Source: Candidatus Woesearchaeota archaeon
Lineage (GTDB): Archaea; Nanobdellota; Nanobdellia; Woesearchaeales; GW2011-AR4
Reading direction: 5' to 3'
Assembly: GCA_018303185.1 (NCBI GenBank)
Contig: JAGVYR010000071.1
Span: 1 to 45,223, forward strand
DNA: 45,223 bases
Shown here: piece after piece, positions 1-40,577 of the stretch
Numbering within the stretch: the stretch's first letter is position 1
Layout of the letters: each line of letters starts with the position of its first letter
Program-made: the position numbers and the translations under genes
Notes under the pieces: model-generated
Databases searched by the model: none
What the model was told of the DNA's origin: nothing
What the model saw: only the letters and a program-made list of their open reading frames with translations

Positions 1-144
1 TGCGCCGCAGCTAACTTGTGAGGTGACAAGCTGCGGCATGGAGCTGCAAGCTCCATCTTGCGCGTCAACCGAGCATAACCGGTTGCGGGGCTTCAACGGC
101 ACTTTCAAAACAACGGCAATAGCCGAGCCTGATGCTAACCCGAG
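1..144. repeat. Hairpin-array interspersed repeat, copy 1 (5' end outside window)
   Basis: This stretch matches 40243-40386 without a gap over 144 bp, with only a few substitutions. It is a chain of short inverted repeats: GCCGCAGCT (4-12) pairs with AGCTGCGGC (29-37); ATGGAGCT (38-45) and AGCTCCAT (49-56) form an 8-bp stem with a 3-nt loop; AACCG/CGGTT and GTTG/CAAC follow. Similarity stops after TGCTAACCCGAG (133-144), before the stop codon of the minus-strand gene at 171. I see no open reading frame that explains it. Confidence 0.85.
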
Positions 145-170
145 CTGATGCGAGACTTTCCTGCAAAGCT

Positions 171-17980: not shown

Positions 17981-18045
17981 AGGAAATGGCAAAAACGCGG
18001 CTTATTTAAAAATTTGCGCTATTTTAAGGTTGTCCGAAATCTCGC

Positions 18046-18226
18046 TTTACCTGAACGCGAGCCTGCTCGAACTTGCAGCAAAGGCGAGCGTTCTCGCAGG
18101 CAAATCTCGGGTTAGCAGCTTTCGCCCAATTAATGTTTAACATGATATATCGGTTATCCCCGTATGGGGCAACCCCCTGCCCTCATTTACTGGAAAAATA
18201 AAATAGGCTCACCTTTGCTGCTAACC
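18046..18226. repeat. Palindrome-rich spacer related to the hairpin-array repeat
   Basis: The spacer 17993-18249 holds no gene. GCCTGC..AAC (18061-18072) pairs with GTT..GCAGGC (18090-18101), 9 of 12 bp. GCAGCAAAGGCGAGC (18075-18089) is inverted at 18207-18221 with one G:U-type change, and GGTTAGCAGC (18110-18119) is inverted perfectly at 18217-18226. CTCGGGTTAGCA (18106-18117) is the exact reverse complement of 133-144 and 40375-40386 in the hairpin-array family. Confidence 0.65.
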
Positions 18227-18249
18227 TTCATTTCTGACAAAGAAATATT

Positions 18250-22699: not shown

Positions 22700-23449
22700 A
22701 TGACAAAGCCAAAAATAGCCATAAGTCTTGACAAGCCCCTGCTGGACTTGATAGACAGCAAGGTAGATGGAAATGTAATCAGGTCAAGGTCGCAGGCGAT
22801 GGAATATTTCCTGAGAAAAGGCCTGAGGGAGCAGTCAGTCAACACTGCAGTCATCTTGCTGTCAGGAGAGCATCAAAAGACTTCATTGAAGCAGCTAAAA
22901 GGGAAGACACTGATACGTAACCAGCTTGATTTTTTTAAAAATAATAGTATCTCCAATGTTTTTATTGTAACACAGCATACTAAGGATATAAAATCCCTGC
23001 TGAACGAAATTGCCGATTCCTCCCTGAATGTGGAAGTGATTGAAAAAGAGGCGAAGGGAAACGCAAAAGCCCTTGAATCAATAAGGGAAAAGATAAAGGG
23101 CAATTTCATCGTAATGTCCGGAGACACATACAACGATTTTGACCTCATAAAGATGGCATCAAAGCACCTTGAAATGGACAAGATGGCAACAATGGGATTA
23201 ATGACGAGGGAAAAGACTGCAGGATACGGCACCGCAATCCTTGACGGGGACTTCATAATAGACTTTGAGGAAAAGCCACGGCATTCTTCAACGCAGATTG
23301 TCAATGCAGGAATCTATATCTTCAAGCCGGAAATATTTGAGCTGTTTGATAATGTCAACAGCCTTGAGAAGGGCCTTTTCCCGAAGCTGGCAAGGATGAA
23401 ACAGCTCATAGGATTCTTTACTTACGGGGAATATTTGCATATGGAATAA
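22700..23449 (+). CDS. Ribbon-helix-helix domain fused to a degenerate sugar nucleotidyltransferase
   Basis: A 249-residue protein. Residues 1-46 (KIAISLDKPLLDLIDSKV, then RSRSQAMEYFLRKGLREQ) form a CopG-like ribbon-helix-helix DNA-binding domain. Residues 47-249 have the fold of glucose-1-phosphate-type nucleotidyltransferases: AVILLSG at the start, VMSGDTYNDFDL and NAGIYIFKPEIFELF. The nucleotide-binding GxGTRxxPxTxxxPK signature is replaced by SGEHQKTSLKQLKGK, so catalysis may be lost. A GGAGGG ribosome-binding site is 7-8 nt before ATG 22700. A nucleotide-sugar-sensing regulator is my inference; an active but divergent transferase is the alternative. Confidence 0.8.
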   Translation: MTKPKIAISLDKPLLDLIDSKVDGNVIRSRSQAMEYFLRKGLREQSVNTAVILLSGEHQKTSLKQLKGKTLIRNQLDFFKNNSISNVFIVTQHTKDIKSLLNEIADSSLNVEVIEKEAKGNAKALESIREKIKGNFIVMSGDTYNDFDLIKMASKHLEMDKMATMGLMTREKTAGYGTAILDGDFIIDFEEKPRHSSTQIVNAGIYIFKPEIFELFDNVNSLEKGLFPKLARMKQLIGFFTYGEYLHME

Positions 23450-23483
23450 AAAGATTTTTAAGTTAGGGCACCATTTTGGATTT

Positions 23484-23630
23484 ATGGAAACTGCCAATGT
23501 CTCTTTGATGCCCACTCAAGCCCTAGATAATGCTAAAAACATAGCCGAAAAAATAAGGTTAATTGGCCGCAACTATCTGGAGGGCCGAAGAGAGGGCATG
23601 CATTTTAGCGATTTAATCCGAGAAGAGTGA
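23484..23630 (+). CDS. Small protein (48 aa), unknown
   Basis: An ATG-initiated 48-residue frame beginning METANVSLMPTQALDNAKNI and ending FSDLIREE. A TATA-like GATTTTTAAG at 23453-23462 is ~26 nt upstream, the usual spacing for leaderless genes here. It is predicted largely helical and amphipathic. It is followed 7 nt later by another small frame, forming a two-gene mini-operon. No family recognised. Confidence 0.5.
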   Translation: METANVSLMPTQALDNAKNIAEKIRLIGRNYLEGRREGMHFSDLIREE

Positions 23631-23637
23631 GATTTCA

Positions 23638-23808
23638 GTGCATCCAGCCGTAAAGTCCGGTTACAGGAGAGCTAAGGGCTACCTTGGAACCGTAAAGAAA
23701 CCTGATGCAGGCACCCTTATTCAGTATGCTTATCATGCATACGTTGCTGCGCGAATTATGGAAGAATGTTATACTCCAAAAACAGAAGAGCCTTTAATTA
23801 AATCCTAA
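23638..23808 (+). CDS. Small protein (56 aa), unknown, GTG start
   Basis: A 56-residue frame starting at GTG 23638 (HPAVKSGYRRAKGYLGTVKK...) with a basic N-terminus and a helix containing YAYHAYVAARIMEECY. It follows the 48-residue frame after 7 nt and its stop overlaps the 3' end of the opposite-strand GT9 gene by 4 nt. Codon content looks protein-like. Function unknown; a small regulatory or toxin-antitoxin-like pair with the preceding frame is conceivable. Confidence 0.45.
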   Translation: MHPAVKSGYRRAKGYLGTVKKPDAGTLIQYAYHAYVAARIMEECYTPKTEEPLIKS

Positions 23809-24932
23809 ACAATTTTAATGACATCCTCAACCTCAATATTCTTCATGCACTTCTGGTAATCCTCAGACTTCTTAGGATAAAGGCAGTCAGGAACCTGCCC
23901 CTTGTGGACATTTACGCAGGGCGAATATTTGCAAATCTGCCCTTTATACACAGCCTTGTTCCCCTTCCCCAAAGGCCCGAACCTTACAGGAATATTTGGG
24001 CCAAATAATCCTATTGTCTTCACGCCCTGTGCAGCGGCAATGTGCATCGGCCCGGAGTCATTCCCTATAAACAAGTCAAGCTTTTCAGCAAGGCAAAAAA
24101 GCTCCCTCAGTGAAAACATGCCTGTTGAATTCATTACTCTGCCCTTATTGCTTATCCCGACAAGCAATCTCCTGTTCAGTTCCTCCTCTGAAGCCCCTCC
24201 TATGAGCACTATCTTAGCATTCTTTTTTTTCTTCATGAGGAGGTTGCACAGCTTCACATACCTTTCAGCCGGCCACATCCTGCTCTTTGCGGATTCAGCC
24301 GCGCCTGCAGCTATCCCGATAAGAAAATCCCCTTCTTTTATCCCATTGAGCTTAAGGTAATCGCCAACTATCTGCCTGTCCCTTCCTGTATAATGCAGCT
24401 TGGCAAGCCCGTTCACGGCAGCATTTACTCCGATTTTCCTTGCAAGGCCCATGAACGTCTCTGCAGCATGCTGCCTGTCATTATACTCAGCGTGCAGGTC
24501 GTAAAGCTTTGCCCTTGCGCCATGTGAATACCCAAGTGAATATTTGCCAACAAAAAAAGAAATGATGGAAGATACGCTCAGGTATTCTTCCATATCGATT
24601 ACAAGATCGAATTTATTTATATTATTCAGCATGAACCCTGCTACTGAAAATGGGTCCATTGAAAGCACGATAACATCGCTTATATCCCTGTTTCCATAGA
24701 AGACATCGGCATTCCTTGAGGTTGCAAGCACTTCAACCATTGCATTTTTATGGCTCCTGCAAATCTCATTTATAGCGGGCAGCGCCAGTATTGTCTCTCC
24801 GATTCCCCAGAGCTGAACTATAAGTATGCGGTTGTAAGAGCCGAGCTTTTTCTTTCCCTTGAAAAGCGCAAGAAAATTGACCAAAACACTGCCAATATAC
24901 CTGTCAGCTGTCTTTATCAGGCTTACCGCCAA
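23805..24932 (-). CDS. Glycosyltransferase family 9 (ADP-heptosyltransferase-like)
   Basis: A 375-residue GT-B enzyme of the WaaC/WaaF/RfaF family. The N-terminal domain begins with ILIVQLWGIGETILALPAIN (family: ILxxxxxGIGDxxxxxPxl), and the C-terminal domain carries IGIAAGAAESAKSRMWPAERY and the signature FIGNDSGPMHIAAAQG. A Cys-rich tail (CKYSPCVNVHKGQVPDCLYP, CM) follows, unlike most bacterial relatives of minimal length. With the hld genes 3 kb away it is the obvious user of ADP-heptose. It is the last gene of the operon GT2-DUF2304-GT9. Confidence 0.92.
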   Translation of the reverse strand: MAVSLIKTADRYIGSVLVNFLALFKGKKKLGSYNRILIVQLWGIGETILALPAINEICRSHKNAMVEVLATSRNADVFYGNRDISDVIVLSMDPFSVAGFMLNNINKFDLVIDMEEYLSVSSIISFFVGKYSLGYSHGARAKLYDLHAEYNDRQHAAETFMGLARKIGVNAAVNGLAKLHYTGRDRQIVGDYLKLNGIKEGDFLIGIAAGAAESAKSRMWPAERYVKLCNLLMKKKKNAKIVLIGGASEEELNRRLLVGISNKGRVMNSTGMFSLRELFCLAEKLDLFIGNDSGPMHIAAAQGVKTIGLFGPNIPVRFGPLGKGNKAVYKGQICKYSPCVNVHKGQVPDCLYPKKSEDYQKCMKNIEVEDVIKIV

Positions 24933-38202: not shown

Positions 38203-40113
38203 ATGAAAGCAGCCAAGCTGAGTTTAATGGTTTTGATTTTGGCTCTTGCTGTAAGCTTGGCAGGTGCCCAGTCAGATTTTAAGCTCTCTTCAGGCACTGA
38301 AGTAAGCCTTTGCCCATGCTCAAACCAGGAGTACAATGTCCTTCTCCAGAACCTAAATCCTGTTCAGCAGTCATACGACATAAGAACTAGCGGAGCAGCA
38401 GCCGGTTGGGTTACAATAGAGCCCGCTGTCCTGACTCTTGAGGCAAATACAGCAGCTTACATTAAAGTCACAGTAAACAGCCCTTGCAACATTGAAGGCC
38501 CTTCAGATTTGAATATCTTTGCAGTAGCCTCTACAGGCGAATACCAATATCTTACACAAAGCCTGGATTTCCTTGCATGCTATGATTATTCATTGTCTTT
38601 GGGAAAGCCTCAAGAAATAACAGGAGCCGCTGTTGAATTTGAAGAAAGTCCGGGCACTTCATTTGACGTATGCGAAGGTTCCTCAATAATTATCCCAATC
38701 CTTGTTGAAAACAGGGAAAATTTTGGAAATTCCTACACTTCTTCATTAAGCGAAAGCAAGGGCATGGCTTCATTAAGCCCGGAAAAATTTGACCTTGCAG
38801 CCAATTCAAGGGGGCTTATGGTTTTGAAGGCTGATGCACTTTCAAGAGGAAACTATCCTATGTCGGTAAGGCTTGTGTCTGGGCTTGGGCAGGTTATAAG
38901 GCAGTCAAACCTCACTCTGAATGTCCAGAATTGCTACGACTTTTCTCTTGAAACGGACAAGAGCAGCCTTGAGATGTGCGGCGGCGACAAAGAGCAGGTC
39001 TCTGTGGCAGTAAAAAACAATGGGGACATTGCCCAGAATATTGTTTTGAGCGCGCAAAACGCTGATTTCGTGTCATTTGGCAACATTTCAAGCTTCACAA
39101 TTGCAGCAAGTTCGGAGAGAAAAATTAATCTTGCTGTCTCCCCAAAGCCTGAAGATTCGGGCCAGTTTAAGGCTGTCCTTCTTGCGTCGAATGAAAACAT
39201 AAACTCGTCAGCGCCGTTAAGCATTCAGGTAACGGGCAGGAATGCCTGCTACAGCTCAGAAGTTGATTTTTACAGCTCCTTGGCTAATCATTATACTCAT
39301 GAAGTTTATCCCGTAACCATAAAAAACAACGGAATAGCAAAATCCGGTTACAATCTGAGCGTACAGGGCCCTGAATGGGTTTCAGTCTCTCCCGGCAGCA
39401 TTGAAGTTAACATGGGCAAAGAGGGCATATTCAACCTTCTGATAAGCCCTCCCGAAGATGCAGAGCAGAAAACCTATGAAATCACGATAAATGCAAAAAC
39501 CCACGGAGAGACATACTCAAAATCATTTTCCCTTGAGCTTAAGCAGGAAAACCCCATCCTGAAGCGCATAAAATCGGCGCTGAATTACTACCAGTACTAT
39601 ATATACGCAGCCGTTGCCATGCTGTTCCTAATAGCTGTGCTGTGGATGCCCGCCAAGCGCAGAATTCAGAAGGCAAAAGAGCAGTATGCGCTATACAAGG
39701 AAAGAGCGGAAAGGCAAAGGCAGCGCGAAGAAGAGAGAAGGGCAAGGGAAGAGCAGAGAAGGATTGAAAGGGAAGAAGCCCGAAGAAAAAGGGAAGAGGA
39801 AAAAAGGAAGAAGGCAGAGCAGAAAGCAAAAGAGCAGGAAAGAAAAAAAGCAAGGCTCGAGAAAAAAGCCGAGAAAAGGCTGAAGAAATTCTCGGCTAAA
39901 GACCACTTCATAGCCGCCGGAATACTGGTGCTTATTGCAGCCTTCGCCCTGCTGTTTTCATACGGGAAAGGCATCGTAAGCTACGCAAAGAATTTCATTC
40001 TCCTCTACCAGCTGTACTTTGTAGCGGGCATTGTCATACTGGCATTGCTCCTTATAGTGATAAGGTTCGGAAAGCCGTTCCTTGATTTTCTTATGGAAGA
40101 CGACAGGAAATAA
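38203..40113 (+). CDS. Secreted/membrane protein with Ig-like ectodomain and long charged helix between membrane spans
   Basis: A 636-residue protein. A signal peptide (LMVLILALAVSLAGAQ) leads to a Cys-containing ectodomain of about four beta-sandwich (NEW3-like) units; each ends with patterns such as FLACYDYSL, NVQNCYDFSL and GRNACYSSEV, giving regularly spaced Cys. A membrane helix (~460-478) is followed by ~80 residues made almost only of Lys, Arg, Glu and Gln, a predicted single alpha-helix or coiled coil, and two more membrane helices at the end. AGGGGGG is 9-15 nt before ATG 38203. It may link the surface layer to the cytosol; function unknown. Confidence 0.82.
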   Translation: MKAAKLSLMVLILALAVSLAGAQSDFKLSSGTEVSLCPCSNQEYNVLLQNLNPVQQSYDIRTSGAAAGWVTIEPAVLTLEANTAAYIKVTVNSPCNIEGPSDLNIFAVASTGEYQYLTQSLDFLACYDYSLSLGKPQEITGAAVEFEESPGTSFDVCEGSSIIIPILVENRENFGNSYTSSLSESKGMASLSPEKFDLAANSRGLMVLKADALSRGNYPMSVRLVSGLGQVIRQSNLTLNVQNCYDFSLETDKSSLEMCGGDKEQVSVAVKNNGDIAQNIVLSAQNADFVSFGNISSFTIAASSERKINLAVSPKPEDSGQFKAVLLASNENINSSAPLSIQVTGRNACYSSEVDFYSSLANHYTHEVYPVTIKNNGIAKSGYNLSVQGPEWVSVSPGSIEVNMGKEGIFNLLISPPEDAEQKTYEITINAKTHGETYSKSFSLELKQENPILKRIKSALNYYQYYIYAAVAMLFLIAVLWMPAKRRIQKAKEQYALYKERAERQRQREEERRAREEQRRIEREEARRKREEEKRKKAEQKAKEQERKKARLEKKAEKRLKKFSAKDHFIAAGILVLIAAFALLFSYGKGIVSYAKNFILLYQLYFVAGIVILALLLIVIRFGKPFLDFLMEDDRK

Positions 40114-40115
40114 GG

Positions 40116-40411
40116 GTTTGTTATAAGGGGAGGTTAGCATCATTATTGCGAGGCTCTTTTATAACAGCATCCAATGAGTTGAGGGGGATGCCCCACAAGG
40201 TTTTAGGAAAACCTTGGCCAAAACAGGTATGGCTTGCAGCCATGCGCCGCAGCTAACTTGTGAGGTGACAAGCTGCGGCATGGAGCTGCAAGCTCCATCT
40301 TACGCGTCAACCGAGCATAACCGGTTGCGGGGCTTCAACGATACTTTTAAGACAATGGCAATAGCCGAGCCTGATGCTAACCCGAGCGCCAGCGAGCCTT
40401 ATAACAAAGCC
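40116..40411. repeat. Hairpin-array interspersed repeat, copy 2 (complete, with terminal inverted repeats)
   Basis: Begins 3 nt after a stop codon. TTTGTTATAAGG (40117-40128) and GGTTAGCATCA (40132-40142) are perfectly inverted at 40397-40408 and 40372-40382. Inside are hairpins with 3-nt loops: GGGG-atg-CCCC (40184-40194), AAGGTTTT-agg-AAAACCTT (40197-40215), ATGGCT-tgc-AGCCAT (40229-40243), then GCCGCAGCT/AGCTGCGGC (40246-40279) and ATGGAGCT-gca-AGCTCCAT (40280-40298). Bases 40243-40386 match window copy 1 (1-144). No transposase or other gene inside. Confidence 0.87.
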
Positions 40412-40459
40412 GAAATAGGTATATTTTTTAAAGAGATTTTATTTTCTTACTGCATTTAT

Positions 40460-40577
40460 GGGGATGTAGTATAACCTGGCCAGAATGCGGGCCTCCAGCC
40501 ATTGGAGCGATGAGCCGGAAGGCGATGATTTCAATGAAAGAAAGCCTGAGATCGGGGTTCAAATCCCTGCATCCCCA
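40460..40577 (+). tRNA. tRNA-Trp (CCA) with 44-nt intron at 37/38
   Basis: Exon 1 is 40460-40498, intron 40499-40542, exon 2 40543-40577. The acceptor stem GGGGATG/CATCCCC is perfect; A14, G18, G19 and A21 are in place; the anticodon stem CGGGC pairs with GCCTG across the intron; anticodon CCA is at 40495-40497; the T arm is CGGGG-TTCAAAT-CCCTG; discriminator A, no encoded CCA. An intron helix CATTG/CAATG and 7-nt strands on both sides give the spacing of a bulge-helix-bulge site, with cuts at AG/C and AA/A; the central 4-bp helix is weak (two pairs). A T run follows the gene. Confidence 0.92.

Follow-up and report, generated by a model that had tools for sequence, protein, structure and literature searches.

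Positions 40114-40411 of the DNA analysed here (a stretch of 45,223 nucleotides, the window, which is contig C22 of the 76-contig, 1.62-Mb, 91% complete draft Woesearchaeota genome G000) form a chain of small hairpins enclosed by inverted repeats. The question they raise is whether such a segment is a selected RNA or a recently mobile non-autonomous element, the two readings between which the first-pass annotation had left the choice. We identify the segment as a non-autonomous transposable element (MITE) whose outer stem (S0) measures 15 bp and whose second stem (S1) measures 11 bp; further stems lie inside these, and the apex carries a hairpin cargo.

The inverted repeats had been noted as 12 + 11 bp bounding 40116-40411; they are real, the second being 11 nt as noted and the outer one 15 nt with one mismatch. 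On the plus strand, the left arm of S0, the terminal inverted repeat, is GGGTTTGTTATAAGG (40114-40128) and the right arm is CCTTATAACAAAGCC (40397-40411), and S1 consists of AGGTTAGCATCA (40131-40142, with the 11-nt repeat itself at 40132-40142) and TGATGCTAACC (40372-40382). The S2 region carries the motif GCGAGGCTC (40148-40156) on its left and ATAGCCGAGCC (40361-40371) on its right side, and S3 has a left arm with apex, GTTGAGGGGGATGCCCCA (40178-40195; compare the cargo-less copy C25:3631-3752), and a right arm, GCGGGGCTTCAAC (40327-40339). The apical cargo between the S3 arms, ~131 bp of hairpins on the same strand (40196-40326), is missing in short copies with the same frame and present within other frames. 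The consecutive small hairpins that had been described between the inverted repeats, several with 3-nt loops, were seen at 40196-40216, 40227-40245 and 40280-40298, and further hairpins inside the element are formed by GCCGCAGCT/AGCTGCGGC and AACCG..CGGTT. An interpretation of the S2 region as a K-turn or tandem G-A motif was dropped, because TTCAAAG-type copies pair fully there and the feature is hence not universal. Comparison of the folding energy with that of shuffled sequence, a check that had been proposed at the outset, shows that 40116-40411 folds far better on both strands (z = -5.57 and -4.74 for the two strands; 0 of 200 dinucleotide shuffles as good).

The element is flanked by a target-site duplication, GAAATAAGG on the left (40107-40115), which also covers the element's first two bases, and GAAATA(-)GG on the right (40412-40419). 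The match between GAAATAAGG and GAAATA-GG is imperfect and, given this, the duplication is aged. The left copy holds the TAA of the upstream ORF (40111-40113); this stop and the minus-strand TGA at 171-173, the two stop codons that both copies of the repeat indeed abut, fall within target duplications.

The second copy had been given as a gap-free recurrence of the right 144 bp at 1-144 of the window; the recurrence is gap-free as described but longer, covering 158 nt with 93% identity. A second such element has its 3' part at positions 1-169 (plus strand) and its 5' part at C2:1-201 on the minus strand. The outer stems match, with S0 GGCTTTGCAGGAAAGT on both parts, and the right target duplication, TTCAAAGCT (170-178), agrees in 8 of 9 positions with its left copy on C2, GTCAAAGCT. 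Both the outer stem, GGCTTTGCAGGAAAGT, and the flank, (G/T)TCAAAGCT, agree on the two sides of the C2/C22 break, so that the contig end fell within the repeat. C2 (minus strand) and C22 are neighbours in the genome, parted by this assembly break in a repeat copy, and the family explains contig breaks in these genomes. A third family element lies at 18102-18233 (plus strand; covariance-model match of 85.9 bits, model positions 12-154; S1 GGTTAGCAGC). At 18041-18101 of the window we also observed an insert of ~57 bp (..CCTGAACGCGAGCCTG...GCGTTCTCGCAGGC..) that many copies share at a constant position between S0 and S1 (also L108, L110, L118, L120, L122, L123, L132 and L136); flanked by repeated AAATCTCG, it is a nested element within an element.

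A genome-wide search for further copies, likewise proposed as a check, found the repeat to be abundant, not two-copy. In its own genome we identified 41 blastn matches and 89 covariance-model matches. A pattern for one generic end gave 94 matches vs. 17 for the reversed control. The copies are dispersed and non-coding, as those of a MITE would be, and measure ~150-330 bp without a transposase. Among the blastn matches, the frame (S0, S1, S2 and S3) also occurs without the central hairpins, as in C25:3631-3752, and the hairpin cargo also sits in frames with different ends (C64, C61, C39 and C60). One locus (L003, C13:8195-8476 of G000) has outer arms of two different S0 types, without a target duplication, and is probably a recombinant between two elements. 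The covariance model R1, built from 22 short elements, matches 22 of the 36 genomes of the host's family and at least 120 of the 353 genomes, and at least 85 of the 220 genera, of the host's order, where the count is a lower bound, at most 8 candidates having been scored per genome, and the E-values are rough. The simple form of ~163-166 bp is found nearly everywhere in the order. A scan of 84,980 genomes with GGTTRSCATCNNNNNNGCGAGSCT gave 54 matches, about the number due to chance, of which only those in two Woesearchaeota contigs are real. Further copies, and covariation in related genomes (see below), the lack of which would have counted against the original proposal, are both plentiful.

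Evidence for transposition comes from the flanks. When 697 kb were searched for 15-bp inverted repeats of the form GG..CC, using no other feature of the family, many pairs were found with exact 9-bp direct repeats (TATTACTGA, TGGAAAAAC, GTTTAAATT, ATTTTTTCA, GCGTTTTCA, TTAACCCAC, TAAAAAATA and GCTGATTTC). Among 81 elements of the own genome and family, 36 have a target duplication in 8-9 of the 9 adjacent bases, compared to 0.11% for swapped flanks, and the duplication has a well-defined length (23 elements are perfect at 9 bp, only 2 at 10 bp). In the order-wide sample, the duplication is perfect in 31 of 64 elements and comprises at least 8 of 9 bases in 39 of 64. The element at G009 C12:65600 is flanked by CCTTTTATC twice and is absent at the orthologous locus in 10 congeners, whose intergenic region is otherwise collinear; this result is for one locus, and the empty sites are too diverged for a base-by-base reading of the single target copy. 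Terminal inverted repeats, a fixed 9-bp target duplication and an insertion polymorphism with empty sites, as characterise MITEs, are thus all present. Integron attC sites were set aside, as core sites of that kind were not recognised and fixed 9-bp duplications are present. Of the 27 target-duplicated copies in the own genome, 25 are intergenic, as would also suit a regulatory or terminator-like repeat retained for a host function. That account is, however, highly improbable, given that convergent, divergent and co-directional sites are used alike, with no orientation preference to genes among these copies, and that presence varies among congeners.

The likely source of the transposase is indicated by the ends. 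IS5-family elements of ~0.9 kb, encoding a transposase of 270-277 aa with transpos_IS5_2 as the best NCBIfam model, are present, together with relatives, in 77 of the 353 genomes of the order. Their ends (GGCTCAGTAGAAAATCT, GGCTCTGTTCAAAATCT, GGCTCTGTAGAAAATCT, GGCTCTGTCCTAAATCT, GGCTCTGTCCTGAATCT, GGGTTTGTCCCAAATCT, GGCTGCGTTGAAAATCT and GGCCGCGATGAAAATCT) belong to the end classes that are also found in the outer stems of the MITE, and exact 9-bp duplications were found in seven of the copies, so that the MITE has both ends and duplication length in common with autonomous IS5 elements. Within the same genome, MITE ends are identical to IS ends in G173 and G218 and one base off in G271; within genus g10, GGCACCGTTCAAAATCT is shared by an IS (in G022) and a MITE (in G032). 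The resemblance extends to IS903-like IS (NCBIfam transpos_IS5_2), which have GGCTNTGTNNNNAAATCT-type terminal inverted repeats and duplicate exactly 9 bp of the target; in IS903B, the ends are GGCTTTGTTGAATAAATC and the repeat is 9 bp long (PMC10569121). Unlike these IS, the element is without a transposase gene and has only the ends in common with them, and its interior is not that of a deleted IS.

No IS5 element with these ends was binned in the G000 draft, where the only intact IS5 relative (C33:23024-23842) has the ends TGCTTGTTTGCAAGTT and an 8-bp duplication, GCCTGCCA. Multi-copy IS are often missing from draft assemblies, so that the missing partner in the host genome is weak counter-evidence. 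The agreement between the ends strongly suggests that the MITE is mobilised in trans by IS5-family transposases; as no partner was found in the host genome, this mobilisation is an inference. Other candidate partners were rejected: IS1595-family transposases gave 0 matches in the 36 family genomes, the IS903-type Pfam model DDE_Tnp_1_5 gave one relative only and none in the own genome, and no end of the family was observed at either DDE_Tnp_1 fragment in the own genome (C48, which is IS1182-like, and C3). The IS5-related element in C33 (about 22900-23900) has a hairpin upstream of its gene.

Comparison of stems between elements shows that pairing is kept while sequences change. In 130 elements, with 47 different S1 sequences, S1 is paired at 9 of 9 positions in 90%, vs. 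9.6% with arms swapped, and S0 at 14 or more of 15 positions in 91%, vs. 6.7%; the set was partly chosen by S0 pairing and model-found elements were partly scored on S0 and S1 pairing, whereas the swapped-arm control and the model-free results for S2 and S3 are independent of such scoring. Of the same elements, 24.6% have an S2 run of 8 bp or more (1.2% with arms swapped) and 40% an S3 run of 7 bp or more (5.8% with arms swapped). In the 22 model elements, for which S0 pairing and flanking repeats were the main selection criteria, 99.5% of the S1 cells are paired, and both sides have changed in 7 of the 9 pairs. S0 and S1 types reassort, a single S0 being found with several S1 and vice versa. 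These per-element tests with swapped-arm controls were used instead of RNAalifold, which lost S1 by misalignment on the 44-sequence alignment A3. All four stems covary, which is unusual for a MITE.

Strong stem covariation, an order-wide conserved length and a very stable fold would suit a selected non-coding RNA, the fold being its function and its many copies the result of dispersal by transposition. A selected RNA is expected to tolerate G-U pairs on its strand, but no wobble excess was found on either strand (stem mismatches over all elements, GT 13 vs. AC 18, with no zone significantly biased), and covariation with G-U tolerated on a transcribed strand, as in structured RNAs, was thus not observed. 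In the 81 own and family elements, S1 is nearly free of such pairs (1 GT and 1 AC in 720 cells). The S1 mismatches of the order-wide sample lean to AC (11 vs. GT 2), which would be wobble on the minus strand and is the only hint for RNA. Folding as RNA favours neither strand (28/69), there is no orientation bias to genes, and no gathering-threshold Rfam match was obtained for the element in the window; the first-pass annotation had been unable to match it to a known RNA class. The absence of a G-U excess on either strand speaks for a process at the DNA level rather than an RNA gene, and we consider a selected RNA improbable. Of the two original readings, the mobile non-autonomous element is strongly supported, by the 9-bp duplications, the absent orthologous insertion and the IS5-family ends, and the selected RNA is not supported. 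The only match in the Rfam search of the window is a tRNA gene at 40460-40577 (plus strand), missed by ARAGORN; it apparently contains a long intron in which box C/D-like motifs (GATGA, CTGA) occur, reminiscent of archaeal intron-encoded guide RNAs.

For the covariation we favour a DNA-level cause, which could be copying between the arms or the use of folded DNA in transposition. Template switching is documented to homogenise the arms of inverted repeats (PMC8604942) and, like quasipalindrome correction, is a DNA-level process that equalises such arms; there it is a mutation mechanism in yeast genes, not a means of transposon upkeep, and it may act here. Pure arm-to-arm copying does not predict that S0 has more mismatches than S1, and the tighter pairing of S1 than of S0 in the family set suggests that the fold itself is additionally required. 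A transposition machinery that recognises a folded single strand or cruciform, with shape as the signal and sequence free, would fit the free variation of S0 and S1 sequences under perfect pairing, the lack of GU tolerance, and the slight preference of DNA folding for one strand (48/69). Nevertheless, the 9-bp duplication and the identity of S0 to IS5 ends fit duplex recognition by a DDE transposase, and no single-strand transposase has been linked to the family; recognition of shape in place of duplex ends is therefore unlikely.

As a whole, the observations are best explained, with a probability of about 0.87, by a MITE family with IS5 ends that is trans-mobilised and whose arms are kept complementary by a DNA-level process. 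IS5-type transposases would bind the S0 ends in trans and move the element mostly into intergenic DNA, where a staggered cut would give rise to the 9-bp duplication. How the arms are held complementary is the least certain step: mainly, template switching might operate, the palindrome folding back during replication and one arm being copied onto the other, and transposition would then amplify elements with matched ends. S1 may be kept strict since DNA that has snapped back into this fold would help to bring the ends together, and matched changes in the two arms of S0 would allow the element to track diverging IS5 transposases while the core persists. Against this explanation, S1-S3 covariation and a constant order-wide length of ~165 bp are not needed for ordinary trans-mobilisation, from which we infer an extra constraint, and the window copy's own duplication is imperfect. 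It is possible, though doubtful, that the family is a single shape-conserved lineage of DNA parasites across the order, in which the fold and not the sequence is kept, arm copying mirrors new ends and so permits switching between IS5 transposases, and the folded S1 acts in transposition.

Known prokaryotic MITEs (Correia, ERIC, Chunjie and QMITE, and those of Sulfolobus and Haloquadratum) are similarly short, gene-less, intergenic and high in copy number, with inverted-repeat ends, target duplications and a stable fold, according to the available text of a review (PMC10969869). Within a MITE family, the ends are normally conserved and belong to a single IS; the present family differs in combining more than 70 outer arms and 47 S1 arms that covary in one order-wide architecture, and the covariation spans several concentric levels while the ends follow several types of IS5 end. 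The same text of the review gives no DPANN example (PMC10969869), and no earlier MITE family of Woesearchaeota or DPANN archaea was found in the literature, which was partially covered; the present one appears to be the first described. It is a natural experiment in which a non-autonomous transposon keeps matched ends while the ends change. It also calls for caution, since strong stem covariation and conserved length, usually taken as proof of a structured RNA, here occur in a transposon without wobble pairs; the comparison of GT with AC mismatches is a cheap discriminator that could be used in other RNA-discovery scans.

The cargo hairpin CAAGGTTTTNNNAAAACCTTGACCAAAA was also found outside the frame in other genomes (L031/L034, G049 C136:5661-5778; L033, G027), in one case, in another family, as a tandem pair beside a tRNA gene. 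In 697 kb of own-genome contigs, we counted 67 perfect hairpins with 3-nt loops and stems of at least 8 bp, vs. 10 in shuffled sequence; very often the stem is exactly 8 bp and the loop GAA or GTA, and the stems vary. These hairpins, which are present inside MITE apices (window 40227-40245 and 40280-40298), perhaps form a second mobile hairpin module.
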